Part shown: positions 15,039 to 55,293 of the stretch, one piece after another
How the letters are laid out: every line of letters begins with the position of its first letter
Numbering within the stretch: position 1 is the first letter of the stretch
Source: Maylandia zebra
Lineage: Eukaryota; Chordata; Actinopteri; Cichliformes; Cichlidae
NCBI RefSeq assembly: GCF_041146795.1
Contig: NC_135175.1
Span: 37,194,169 to 37,258,168 of the forward strand
Direction: 5' to 3'
DNA: 64,000 bases
Position numbers and translations under genes: made by a program
The notes under the pieces: generated by a model
The model's database searches: none
Seen by the model: the letters and a program-made list of their open reading frames with translations, nothing else
Told to the model about the DNA's origin: nothing

Positions 15039-15245
15039 AGAGACAAGTAAAATTTGAATTTATTTTTGCGTGTGTAGTTTCCTGCTGAGGTGGATAAGCA
15101 TGATGCTATGCCGTCCGACAGGTCTGCTGTGATTTCCACAGAAAGACCTCCCCCAGTTTCAGGTTACACTCACTTCTTTGGAAGCTGAAATCAAAGTTCA
15201 GAGACAAACTCAGTGTGAACACATCACAGCTCCTCACATTGAGAG

Positions 15246-15324
15246 AGCAGCAGCCCTGAAGCCCGTCTGACAGGCACCAGCGAGTGGAAGCGCTCCTTTC
15301 TCTGTCATCGTTTCGAGCTGAAAG
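15246..15324 (+). other. Possible exon in duplication arm 1, unidentified
   Basis: 79 bases open between an ag acceptor-like site and a strong donor (AAAG|gtgagt). They encode SSPEARLTGTSEWKRSF then LCHRFELK. The arm-2 copy (55291-55213) is also open but has G for S, Y for F and S for F. I do not recognise the protein. It could be a gene remnant or chance. Confidence 0.35.
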
Positions 15325-16424
15325 GTGAGTGTGTCTGCCGTTTCTACCTGAAGCTCCTCGTCAGGCTCTGGCTTGGCCTTTGAGGGCGAGCGCCACAGAA
15401 GGTTTCCTTCCTGCGAGCCTGACGTCTGCTCTCGCTGGTGTCGATTAAAAGCAGCTGGAGGCCATCTTTGTAAACCTGCTGAGAACATCTGCAGGGTTTG
15501 CTCCTTCTTTCACACTTCATCATCAGCCAGCTGTGTGTGATCGCACCATCTTTAATCTGAGATCAGGTTCAAACCAGTTTGAGCTGCAGTGGCAGGAAAC
15601 AGCTGAGGGCGGGGCATGCTGACATTCCCGACTCCTGATTGGTGTCGGGGGTGTCCACTGCTTCTGCGTTTTGTTTGTTTTGTGCAGGCCGAGTAAACGA
15701 GAACAGCCTGTGAAAGATAAGTCGTGTGCGAGTTGAGGCACCTTTAGGCTCCGCCTTGCTGGCGTCTGCTTTTTGAAGATCTCTGTGAGTTTGGGACTGA
15801 CGGCCGTGGACGGGATTTAAAGTTCCTTCCATCCATCCTGTATCCCAGCTGACCCACAGCCGAACTGGGTGATGATCCTGACCAGTTTAAAGAACATTAA
15901 TGCAAACTGACCACACAGAACACGTTACCATCACATACACATCATACAGACTCTGTATGAACCCATGTTGTTCGTGCAGCAACAGGAAGTAGTTTTTATT
16001 GCAGAGTTCATAGAGGTCATGCTTGAATATTTGTGTTCGTTTGGGGAGGCCTTTTGCTCCTCCCCTTTCACAAAGGATGCTCCAGTGTGTCCTCTGCTAA
16101 AGGAAGTAAAGGAAGCACTGAAGTGCCTTTAGTCCATAACATGTGGAGAATTCAGACAGCGCTGATGAGGGCAGATACTTCCAGGTCACGCCTCCTTCCT
16201 GAACTAAACCCCGCCTCTTTCTGTGCCTCTGTCATAGTCGTCCATGTGTTTGTGGTGCACTGATTTATTACTGGAGATGTTTGCTAACACTGACTGTGTT
16301 TCACGTCGGCGCTCTCACAGTGTAAAGCTGGATCTGCGTCATCGCTTTACACCCGCGTGCGCTCATTACCCATGATGCATCAGAGTCTGATCACAGTGTT
16401 TTCTGATGCTAGCAGGAAGCCGAG

Positions 16425-17299
16425 ATGACGGAGCCGGACCTCGTCAACATCCTGGAAGACATAACAGATGAGGAATTCAAGACCTTCAAGTGGAACCTGA
16501 AGAACGAGCGGTTTAGAGACATCGAGCCCATCAAAGTGACCCGGCTGTCGACGGCGGAGCGGTGCGACGCCGTGGATCTGATGGTGCAGAAGTATGACAT
16601 GGACGGAGCCGTGCAGGTGATGGAGAGCATCTTTAAGAAGATCAACAGGAACGACCTGGTGAAGAAGCTGCGAAAGGTCATGGGTCAACCTGCAGGTCAG
16701 TGAGGCTGTGGGCAGGCGTGCACTTCCTTTAACCTGTTTGAGCGTTTGACATTCAGGTGACATCATCAGGGTCAGAGCAGCGTCACGCTGTGACAGGACG
16801 TGCAAACAGGAAGTGTGTGCAGAGTGTCTCTCTCCCTTTTAAGGTGCATTCAGAGCAAACAGCTGATGGAAGGAGCCGCCCGAGTCGGAGCTGCTGGATT
16901 GGATGTTCTCAGGAACTCTGAGGCTCCCGTGGTCGGAGGTCTTCGGCCTCACTCTGACCTCGGCATTAATCCGTCCTCCTCTCTCTCACAGGTCTTCCAG
17001 GTCCCGATCTGCCAAAGACCGCCGCCGACTCCTCGGCAGAGGAGAAGTTGGCGGCCGTTCGCTCTCAGTTTATCGACAGAGTGTCCGAACCCGTCCTGAG
17101 GAAGCTGCTGGATAAACTCCTGGAGCTCCGCGTCATCATCGATGATGAAATGGATTTAGGCGGAGTGAGGAGCAGGGCGGATAAAGCCCGACAGGTGATC
17201 GACGTGGTGCGCAGAAAAGGATCCCAGGGCAGCTCGGCTCTGATCGCCGCTCTCTGCGAGGTGGATCCGTGCCTTTCACGGGAGCTGCAGCTGATGTGA
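16425..17299 (+). CDS. PYD-CARD adaptor protein, copy 1 (ASC-like layout)
   Basis: Two-exon gene, 192 residues. Exon 16425-16695 encodes a pyrin domain (residues 1-88: LVNILEDITDEEFKTFKWNL, then VDLMVQKYDMDGAV and NDLVKKLRKVMG). Exon 16992-17299 encodes a linker and a CARD (about 107-191: RSQFIDRVSEPVLRKLLDKL, then RADKARQVIDVVRRKG). PYD-CARD proteins such as ASC join an inflammasome sensor to a caspase. The CARD looks closer to the caspase-1/NLRP1 kind than to that of classical ASC, so it is not simply pycard. Acceptor ctctctcacag and donor CAG|gtcagt are good. ATG at 16425 follows an in-frame-free leader and fits a PYD start. A nearly identical inverted copy is at 53219-54093. Confidence 0.87.
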
Positions 17300-17869
17300 C
17301 GCACTGCCAGATGTTCAGCACTCACAGGAGAGCAAATTAGGAATCATCTGTAACACCCAGAAGCAGCTGATACAGTTCAATGTTCAATCCTCCAATCCAC
17401 TTACAGAAACACGAGCGCGAGGCTCATCTATTTGGTTTGGTTTTCACATCAAAGATTTTCACAGAGACGATTTTCTATGCGTCTTTATACAAACAAAGAT
17501 GTTCAAACAGCAGAACATGTCAGAGTTTCAGCAGGTTTCAGGACTAAAGTGTCCCAGAAACAAGGCTTTGAGTCAAACCTGAACAGTCGGCTCTGTGAAA
17601 ACCTTCAGGATGGATGGAAACCAAGATCTCTGACTTCCAGTCTGAGAACAAAACAATCAGGAAAATGACTTTATTTGTAGAATTTTCATCGGACACTGAT
17701 GTTAACGAGAAGTTTATTAGATTTTATGGAAACATTTTAGAGCTGATTAGAATAAAAGTCCAACAGATTAATGAGGATTTTGGCTGTTTTCATGTTGTTG
17801 AAGTCAAACGTGTCAGAGAGCAGAGGGTCAGAGTTTCATGTTTCTTTCTGTAACTCTGATCAACGTGAA

Positions 17870-53218: not shown

Positions 53219-54093
53219 TCACATCAGCTGCAGCTCCCGTGAAAGGCACGGATCCACCTCACAGAGAGCGGCGATCAGAGCCGAGCTGCCCTGGGATCCT
53301 TTTCTGCGCACCACGTCGATCACCTGTCGGGCTTTATCCGCCCTGCTCCTCACTCCGCCTAAATCCATTTCATCATCGATGATGACGCGGCGCTCCAGGA
53401 GTTTATCCAGCAGCTTCCTCAGGACGGGTTCGGACACTCTGTCGATAAACTGAGAGCGAACGGCCGCCAACTTCTCCTCTGCCGAGGAGTCGGCGGCGGT
53501 CTTTGGCAGATCGGGACCTGGAAGACCTGTGAGAGAGAGGAGGACGGATTAATGCCGAGGTCAGAGTGAGGCCGAAGACCTCCGACCACGGGAGCCTCAG
53601 AGTTCCTGAGAACATCCAATCCAGCAGCTCCGACTCGGGCGGCTCCTTCCATCAGCTGTTTGCTCTGAATGCACCTTAAAAGGGAGAGAGACACTCTGCA
53701 CACACTTCCTGTTTGCACGTCCTGTCACAGCGTGACGCTGCTCTGACCCTGATGATGTCACCTGAATGTCAAATGCTCAAACAGGTTAAAGGAAGTGCAC
53801 GCCTGCCCACAGCCTCACTGACCTGCAGGTTGACCCATGACCTTTCGCAGCTTCTTCACCAGGTCGTTCCTGTTGATCTTCTTAAAGATGCTCTCCATCA
53901 CCTGCACGGCTCCGTCCATGTCATACTTCTGCACCATCAGATCCACGGCGTCGCACCGCTCCGCCGTCGACAGCCGGGTCACTTTGATGGGCTCGATGTC
54001 TCTAAACCGCTCGTTCTTCAGGTTCCACTTGAAGGTCTTGAATTCCTCATCTGTTATGTCTTCCAGGATGTTGACGAGGTCCGGCTCCGTCAT
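53219..54093 (-). CDS. PYD-CARD adaptor protein, copy 2
   Basis: Exons 54093-53823 and 53526-53219, 192 residues, same splice sites as copy 1. The pyrin domain (1-88) is unchanged. In the CARD, residue 136 is Arg here and Leu in copy 1 (GAGCGC versus GAGCTC context); I saw no other protein difference. Both copies keep their promoters region, intron, stop and polyadenylation signal, so both may be expressed. Role and uncertainty as for copy 1: probable inflammasome-type adaptor joining a PYD partner to a CARD partner. Confidence 0.87.
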
Positions 54094-55212
54094 CTCGGCT
54101 TCCTGCTAGCATCAGAAAACACTGTGATCAGACTCTGATGCATCATGGGTAATGAGCGCACGCGGGTGTAAAGCGATGACGCAGATCCAGCTTTACACTG
54201 TGAGAGCGCCGACGTGAAACACAGTCAGTGTTAGCAAACATCTCCAGTAATAAATCAGTGCACCACAAACACATGGACGACTATGACAGAGGCACAGAAA
54301 GAGGCGGGGTTTAGTTCAGGAAGGAGGCGTGACCTGGAAGTATCTGCCCTCATCAGCGCTGTCTGAATTCTCCACATGTTATGGACTAAAGGCACTTCAG
54401 TGCTTCCTTTACTTCCTTTAGCAGAGGACACACTGGAGCATCCTTTGTGAAAGGGGAGGAGCAAAAGGCTTCCCCAAACGAACACAAATATTCAAGCATG
54501 ACCTCTATGAACTCTGCAATAAAAACTACTTCCTGTTGCTGCACGAACAACATGGGTTCATACAGAGTCTGTATGATGTGTATGTGATGGTAACGTGTTC
54601 TGTGTGGTCAGTTTGCATTAATGTTCTTTAAACTGGTCAGGATCATCACCCAGTTCGGCTGTGGGTCAGCTGGGATACAGGATGGATGGAAGGAACTTTA
54701 AATCCCGTCCACGGCCGTCAGTCCCAAACTCACAGAGATCTTCAAAAAGCAGACGCCAGCAAGGCGGAGCCTAAAGGTGCCTCAACTCGCACACGACTTA
54801 TCTTTCACAGGCTGTTCTCGTTTACTCGGCCTGCACAAAACAAACAAAACGCAGAAGCAGTGGACACCCCCGACACCAATCAGGAGTCGGGAATGTCAGC
54901 ATGCCCCGCCCTCAGCTGTTTCCTGCCACTGCAGCTCAAACTGGTTTGAACCTGATCTCAGATTAAAGATGGTGCGATCACACACAGCTGGCTGATGATG
55001 AAGTGTGAAAGAAGGAGCAAACCCTGCAGATGTTCTCAGCAGGTTTACAAAGATGGCCTCCAGCTGCTTTTAATCGACACCAGCGAGAGCAGACGTCAGG
55101 CTCGCAGGAAGGAAACCTTCTGTGGCGCTCGCCCTTAACGGCCAAGCCAGAATCTCCCAGGCGACCCTGAAGCTGACGAGGAGCTTCAGGTAGAAACGGC
55201 AGACACACTCAC

Positions 55213-55291
55213 CTTTCAGCTCGGAGCGATGACAGAGATAGGAGCGCTTCCACTCGCCGGTGCCTGTCAGACGGGCTTCAGGGCTGCTGCT
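55213..55291 (-). other. Possible exon in duplication arm 2, unidentified
   Basis: Counterpart of 15246-15324. It encodes SSPEARLTGTGEWKRSY then LCHRSELK between an ag site and a gtgagt donor. The two copies differ by four bases in 79, mostly changing amino acids, while the rest of the arms is nearly identical. Confidence 0.35.
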
Positions 55292-55293
55292 CT

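Follow-up and report, generated by a model that had tools for sequence, protein, structure and literature searches.

Near-identical PYD-CARD genes on an inverted duplication in Maylandia zebra: probable gene conversion of an older duplicate pair

Genes that combine a PYD with a CARD, as ASC (PYCARD) does, occur in several copies in a number of fishes. Going by excerpts of the reports, medaka has three tandem ASC copies (ASC1 to ASC3) and large yellow croaker has tandem copies as well (PMC9978379), the binding of the replicated medaka proteins being unknown (PMC8122782); the copy number of PYCARD1/2 differs between stickleback populations (PMC4256280); and round goby has 20 PYD-CARD genes (PMC6988351). 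Because copies are reported in these four fishes, extra PYD-CARD genes in fish are not new. Here, we analyze one pair of such genes in one genome, that of the cichlid Maylandia zebra (962 Mb in 63 contigs), in which they lie on the near-identical arms of an inverted duplication within a stretch of 64,000 bp on contig C9 (C9:37194169-37258168; hereafter, the window). The pair is ordinary in kind, with a neat contrast between the edge and the body of the arms that probably reflects gene conversion.

In a comparison of the window with itself by the Basic Local Alignment Search Tool (BLAST), a single inverted pair dominates, a minus-strand match of 15227-17901 to 55311-52617 with 98.7% identity over 2,695 columns. 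Self-BLAST, alignment and genome search all confirm the ~2.7-kb inverted arms that the initial annotation had placed at 15244-17901 and 52617-55293, and the alignment and difference count that it had proposed gave 13 substitutions and one 19-bp insertion or deletion (indel) in a global alignment. A spacer of 34,715 bp separates the arms, which sit in different flanks on both sides. When the genome was searched with the arm, scoring of 40 of 80 candidates gave 41 matches; just two of these, arms A and B themselves, covered the whole arm, and the next best was a partial copy on contig C5 (80% over ~690 bp and 89% over ~130 bp).

15244..17901, plus strand: left arm (A), repeat with PYD-CARD gene copy A (self-BLAST, alignment)
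52617..55293, minus strand: right arm (B), probably derived, in inverted orientation and carrying PYD-CARD gene copy B (self-BLAST; 3' flank without the C5-shared flank of A beyond ~24 bp)
17902..52616, no strand: 34.7-kb spacer, predicted to be invertible by exchange between the arms, with a Bcl-2-family gene inside (Pfam Bcl-2 at 34134-34592, minus strand)

The differences between the arms are distributed very unevenly. The outer 139 bp (15244-15382) hold 8 of the 13 substitutions and the 19-bp indel, and the remaining 2,519 bp (15383-17901) hold five, corresponding to rates of 5.8% at the edge (95% interval 2.5 to 11.0) and 0.20% in the body (0.06 to 0.46), a ~29-fold difference. The best change-point falls at 15382 (twice the log-likelihood difference, 2dLL, 30.8) and was matched by none of 20,000 random placements; in a scan test, clustering of this degree arose in 0 of 100,000 trials. 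Uniform mutation after one event fails to explain this clustering. By contrast, a body far more alike than the edges (0.2% versus 5.8%) is the pattern expected of gene conversion. The handful of single-base differences described in the initial annotation, including Leu/Arg at residue 136, are present as described; their concentration at the outer 5' edge had been overlooked.

15244..15382, plus strand: diverged outer edge of arm A, with 8 substitutions in 139 bp and lacking 19 bp found in B only; spans the putative 5' untranslated region (5'UTR) exon and the start of intron 1 (alignment, change-point)
55136..55293, minus strand: divergent outer edge of arm B, in which 55156-55174 are the 19 bp missing from A (alignment)

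Faint similarity continues past the arms. An extension anchored at the upstream end aligned 65 bp in A with 58 bp in B, 39 of 57 aligned bases being alike (68%; score 10.5). This score was reached in 0 of 500 plain shuffles (for a 60-bp version), in 1 of 300 dinucleotide shuffles, at 1 of 400 places in the window when overlap of the flank with itself was allowed (that place scored 46), and at 3 of 2,000 places when overlap was excluded. On the 3' side, the flank of B matches C5 for ~24 bp past the arm, a match equaled in 6 of 500 shuffles, in 3 of 300 and 0 of 400 further controls, and at 14 of 2,000 places; place 50672, which scored high in this control, was set aside by eye as AT-rich low complexity. 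Plain BLAST of the flanks returned weak matches only (best E 0.008; the upstream ones in simple repeat), none anchored at the arms. These modest signals are compatible with an originally slightly longer duplication whose rims would have decayed.

15179..15243, plus strand: upstream stretch with some remaining similarity to 55294-55351 of B, 39 of 57 aligned bases being alike (anchored extension, score 10.5)

Because of the ~29-fold difference in divergence between edge and body and the faint homology past the arms, we favor an older inverted duplication followed by recent homogenization of the gene bodies through gene conversion, and we regard this as the probable history of the pair. The PYD-CARD gene at the left site would have given rise to an inverted duplicate 34.7 kb away, the copied piece being slightly longer than the present arms. 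The edges would then have diverged, and the bodies (~15383-17901) would recently have been overwritten by conversion between the paired arms, with or without crossing over, which would leave the interior 99.8% identical and the outer edge at no more than 94%. At a fish rate of ~3.5e-9 per site per year, 0.2% would correspond to ~0.3 million years and 5.8% to ~8 million, values that serve as illustrations and not as dates. According to the consulted part of one source, mammalian conversion tracts usually span a few hundred bases and rarely more than 1 kb, with some studies suggesting far longer ones (PMC3961182). The homogenized body of 2.5 kb would, therefore, reflect several tracts, one long tract, or an exchange accompanied by inversion of the spacer. 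The initial annotation had left the choice between a very recent duplication and gene conversion; the edge/body difference and the homology outside the arms point to conversion, of a duplication that is itself older, and a simple very recent duplication is less favored.

Several observations weigh against this history. Polarizing the differences at the 5' edge would require a third copy, and a genome search with the first 457 bp returned only the arms (2 of 2 scored matches). A cluster of mutations born when the junction formed would give a similar picture. The residual similarity of the flanks is short and only moderately significant, and a direct comparison of the 3' flanks of A and B shows no similarity (168 of 500 shuffles reach the score). 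Moreover, the flanks become unalignable within ~65 bp, a more abrupt loss than an old duplication should show, unless its breakpoints were there from the start.

The alternative that survives best is a single very recent inverted duplication by error-prone template-switching repair, in which the edge differences and the indel would have arisen as the junction formed, and the low divergence of the body would simply reflect its youth. We consider this unlikely, and still the most serious competitor. The body divergence of only 5 in 2,519 would suit a young event, as would the lack of any target-site repeat longer than 4 bp and of poly(A) in the 30 to 60 bp next to the ends of B; in addition, two facing repeats form a 3.5-kb near-palindrome, the end of which is 406 bp away from arm A. 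Near-palindromes of this kind stall replication forks. However, one such event must yield not only ~8 substitutions and an indel over 139 bp but also ~65 bp at 68% outside the arms, and the window offers no template elsewhere for any word of ≥11 bp from the 19-bp insert. The near-palindrome (window 11344-14837) is made up of 11344-13008 and 13145-14837, inverted, ~98% alike and set around a 136-bp center; its facing frames resemble what we take to be a Harbinger-type transposase, with no Pfam hit in the one frame scanned.

Very improbable, in our view, is RNA-mediated copying of an unspliced transcript, the duplicated unit being the primary transcript. It would account for arms that begin in a putative 5'UTR exon and stop 26 bp past an AATAAA, near where a transcript would begin and end; however, the transcript start is itself putative, the faint homology reaches ~65 bp above the arm, both copies keep their introns, no run of A longer than 4 occurs in the first 60 bp after B, and the 30-bp flanks share no word longer than 4 bp. 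None of the features of a retrocopy (intron loss, poly(A) tract, target-site duplication) was found.

15244..15324, plus strand: putative 5'UTR exon of copy A, with GT at 15325 (splice-like signal in sequence; the real start may differ)
17870..17875, plus strand: AATAAA of copy A, 26 bp short of the arm end (read in sequence; in copy B, 52643-52648)

An assembly artefact, whether from double placement of one real locus or from misjoining of a haplotig, is equally unlikely, because the flanks differ on both sides of the arms where a haplotig copy would be expected to bring its flanks along, because the arms differ at 13 bases and by the 19-bp indel, and with the long C5-shared flank lying at arm A only.

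Copies A and B are apparently intact: the frames, the GT/AG intron, the stop and the AATAAA support the two intact PYD-CARD genes described by the initial annotation. In our gene model, each copy has 192 codons and a stop in two coding exons, and the coding intron has GT/AG borders. Pfam finds PYRIN at residues 6-79 (E 9.7e-21) and CARD at 109-190 (E 8.9e-12) of the 192-residue protein, both above the Pfam cut-off. The spliced coding sequences differ at 2 of 579 bases: codon 136 is CTC (Leu) in A and CGC (Arg) in B, the sole difference between the proteins, and codon 179 (TGC/TGT) is silent. In a structural model of the CARD (mean predicted local distance difference test score, pLDDT, 77.6; alignment of five sequences), residue 136 directly follows the second helix (model residues 33-45), a position from which no functional claim is drawn. 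Intron 1 contains a dispersed element (window 16042-16195 in arm A, and likewise in arm B), to which 29 of the 41 arm matches belong, 72-89% alike and on many chromosomes.

16416..16695, plus strand: PYD exon of copy A, ATG at 16425 (gene model; Pfam PYRIN E 9.7e-21)
16992..17299, plus strand: CARD exon to stop of copy A, codon 136 CTC (Leu), differing base 17127 (gene model; Pfam CARD E 8.9e-12)
53823..54093, minus strand: PYD coding exon of copy B (gene model)
53219..53526, minus strand: CARD exon to stop of copy B, codon 136 CGC (Arg), base 53391 (gene model)

From the partial copy on C5, we infer that the left site (A) is the older and B the derived one, because C5 shares the 3' flank of A and not that of B beyond ~24 bp. 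BLAST aligns C5 across the 3' end of arm A into its flank (17877-17979 at 82%, 17978-18023 at 98%) and again from 18346; the repeat at 18029-18345 has no counterpart in C5. Matches to the joined flanks of A (3 of 3) were accounted for by the two flanks of A itself and by C5. An empty site for B was not found in the corresponding search, in which the joined flanks of B recovered the two flanks of B itself; of the 40 scored matches (from 351 candidates), the remaining 38 lay in a dispersed repeat that forms the outer ~130 bp of one flank.

17902..18028, plus strand: 3' flank of arm A common to the C5 partial copy, candidate older 3' context (BLAST to C5)
18029..18345, no strand: repeat element in the 3' flank of arm A, missing from C5 (C5 alignments meet at 18023 and 18346; related stretch at 57401-57717)

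The C5 copy is decayed; in the stretch examined, it consists of the CARD exon and the 3' part only, with the frame shifted by a short deletion. When it is used as outgroup for the five body differences, 17127 is new in A, 17257 and 17426 are new in B, 16744 is ambiguous, and 16048 lies beyond the C5 match. Residue 136 is Arg in the C5 copy and Gln in the two FIIND-CARD relatives aligned; thus, Leu136 is likely the new state, in copy A. Further C5 homology, at 19641-20691, was set aside as a mobile element with similar reading frames at C21. A gene-like stretch at window 62940-63207 is also common to C5 (C5:797561-797856; L009/L010; 76%), where it is followed, after ~180 bp, by the stretch homologous to intron 2 and the CARD exon. 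A larger inverted duplication, considered on account of an 82% inverted match between -6072..-5643 and 64211..64640, was rejected as a dispersed repeat (3,561 first-look candidates; 40 of 40 scored match).

The encoded protein has the architecture of ASC/PYCARD, i.e., one N-terminal PYD, one C-terminal CARD, about 190-210 residues and nothing else. Nevertheless, while the gene is an ASC-like bridge by architecture, it is not the ASC orthologue by sequence. A zebrafish Asc query, identical to 5gpp at 87 of 88 aligned PYD residues and no more than similar to 5gpq in its CARD, matched CARDs on C11 and C1 most strongly, with up to 69.5 bits, compared with 25.0 for the CARD of arm B and 23.2 for that of arm A, and the arm PYDs are absent among the 45 matches listed for this query. 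Among PDB sequence matches of the arm protein, ICEBERG, caspase-1 and NLRP PYDs are the best, and ASC appears only at E 1.2. Identity with ASC was rejected on these two grounds. A fold search with the CARD model likewise fits ICEBERG and the caspase-1 CARD best, with a best E of 1.6e-3 and 0 of 107 matches under E 0.001. Within the genome, the arm CARD is nearest to CARDs on C3 and C13 (61-69% identical), whose upstream exons encode FIIND in the one C3 locus and one C13 locus scanned, and the arm PYD is nearest to two PYDs on C22 (63% and 55%). A caspase CARD as source was rejected, CARDs beside C14 peptidase hits (caspase domains on C14) being 44-45% alike, below those of the FIIND-CARD genes. 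The gene may have originated by the joining of an NLR-type PYD to an NLRP1-type CARD.

In total, the genome has at least 137 PYRIN and at least 103 CARD matches. Pairing was assessed from two hand-copied lists with 117 of the 137 PYD hits (the 20 on C25, where no CARD is listed, were left out) and 80 of the 103 CARD hits. A PYD followed by a CARD on the same strand within 6 kb was found in the two arms (384 bp apart), at C22:10436 kb (94 bp) and at C11:190 kb (5,287 bp), with two further pairs each in arrays on C1 and C11 (2.35-3.7 kb). At C11:190 kb, a NACHT-like frame comes next (by eye); the single-frame PYD-CARD at C22:10436 was tried as ASC and is divergent and no better. The initial annotation had held that two live copies of an inflammasome-type adaptor would change its dosage: the PYD-CARD architecture stands, but a change in dosage of "the" adaptor is unsupported, given that the arm gene is not ASC-closest and that other PYD-then-CARD arrangements occur on C1, C11 and C22.

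The arrays at C1:39684053-39810561 and C11:36237737-36420892 are dense in PYDs and CARDs, hold the ASC-closest CARDs and have members often identical in score, as if one array had been duplicated between two chromosomes. On C25 (111056-3157250), 20 of the 137 PYRIN matches are scattered across 3 Mb in open frames of 98-99 residues; every one is on the minus strand, and the contig has no CARD among the matches listed. At C21:3825500-3832000 (L061), PYRIN and a B-box share one frame and a TRIM coiled coil and PRY-SPRY the next, as in a PYD-headed TRIM-like gene.

Copies A and B have coding, intron and 3' sequence in common, and their upstream sequences are unrelated beyond ~65 bp. Because each copy lies under a different upstream region, the near-identical proteins are probably expressed under different control. 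If both are expressed, the copies should differ in control rather than in protein. Judged by architecture and by death-fold biology, the proteins would be PYD-to-CARD bridges, in which the PYD would join the PYD filaments of a sensor and the CARD, being caspase-1-like, would bring in caspase-1, ASC or FIIND-CARD partners. A bolder proposal, which we consider doubtful, is a standing exchange system in which repeated conversion would keep two copies of a lineage-specific non-ASC adaptor (NLR-type PYD plus NLRP1/caspase-1-type CARD) almost the same in protein while the promoters diverge, crossing over would flip the spacer, and the resulting inversion polymorphism would link a Bcl-2-family death regulator to control of the adaptor.

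As to the spacer, the best PDB matches of its Bcl-2-family gene (34134-34592, minus strand) are BCL-2 and then BCL-XL. A BH4-like piece (by eye) lies upstream on the same strand in a different frame from the BH1-BH2 part, indicating an intron or a break between them. An imperfect GT-rich tandem repeat of ~1 kb occupies 44573-45556.

If conversion of an older duplication is correct, the pair illustrates clearly, on a small scale, the concerted evolution of an innate-immune adaptor in a fish, with protein and introns kept alike and the upstream sequence diverging. It would also predict a 34.7-kb inversion polymorphism and would caution that "recent duplicate" labels resting on body identity alone can mislead. 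The locus also points to a PYD-CARD gene other than the ASC orthologue in a genome rich in PYDs and CARDs. No report of such a pair was found in the literature on inverted converted pairs or on PYCARD in cichlids, a weak negative based on partial coverage of titles and abstract openings.

Altogether, the locus shares features with three described systems and departs from each. As in the teleosts with multiple ASC/PYCARD copies, several PYD-CARD genes are present per genome, some close together; in contrast, inverted arms with divergent edges and homogenized bodies are not described in the consulted parts of those reports. In addition, the arm CARD is not the ASC-closest CARD of its own genome. 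The CARD is 61-69% identical to those of the NLRP1/CARD8-type FIIND-CARD genes on C3 and C13 of the same genome; however, in those genes the CARD follows a FIIND, whereas the arm genes have a PYD exon instead. Finally, the arrangement resembles human segments with recurrent inversion such as HsInv0389 at FLNA/EMD, in which, as far as the consulted part of the report describes, near-identical inverted repeats surround a unique segment and exchange between them is expected to invert the segment or convert the arms (PMC3961182), except that in M. zebra the repeat itself carries the coding gene.

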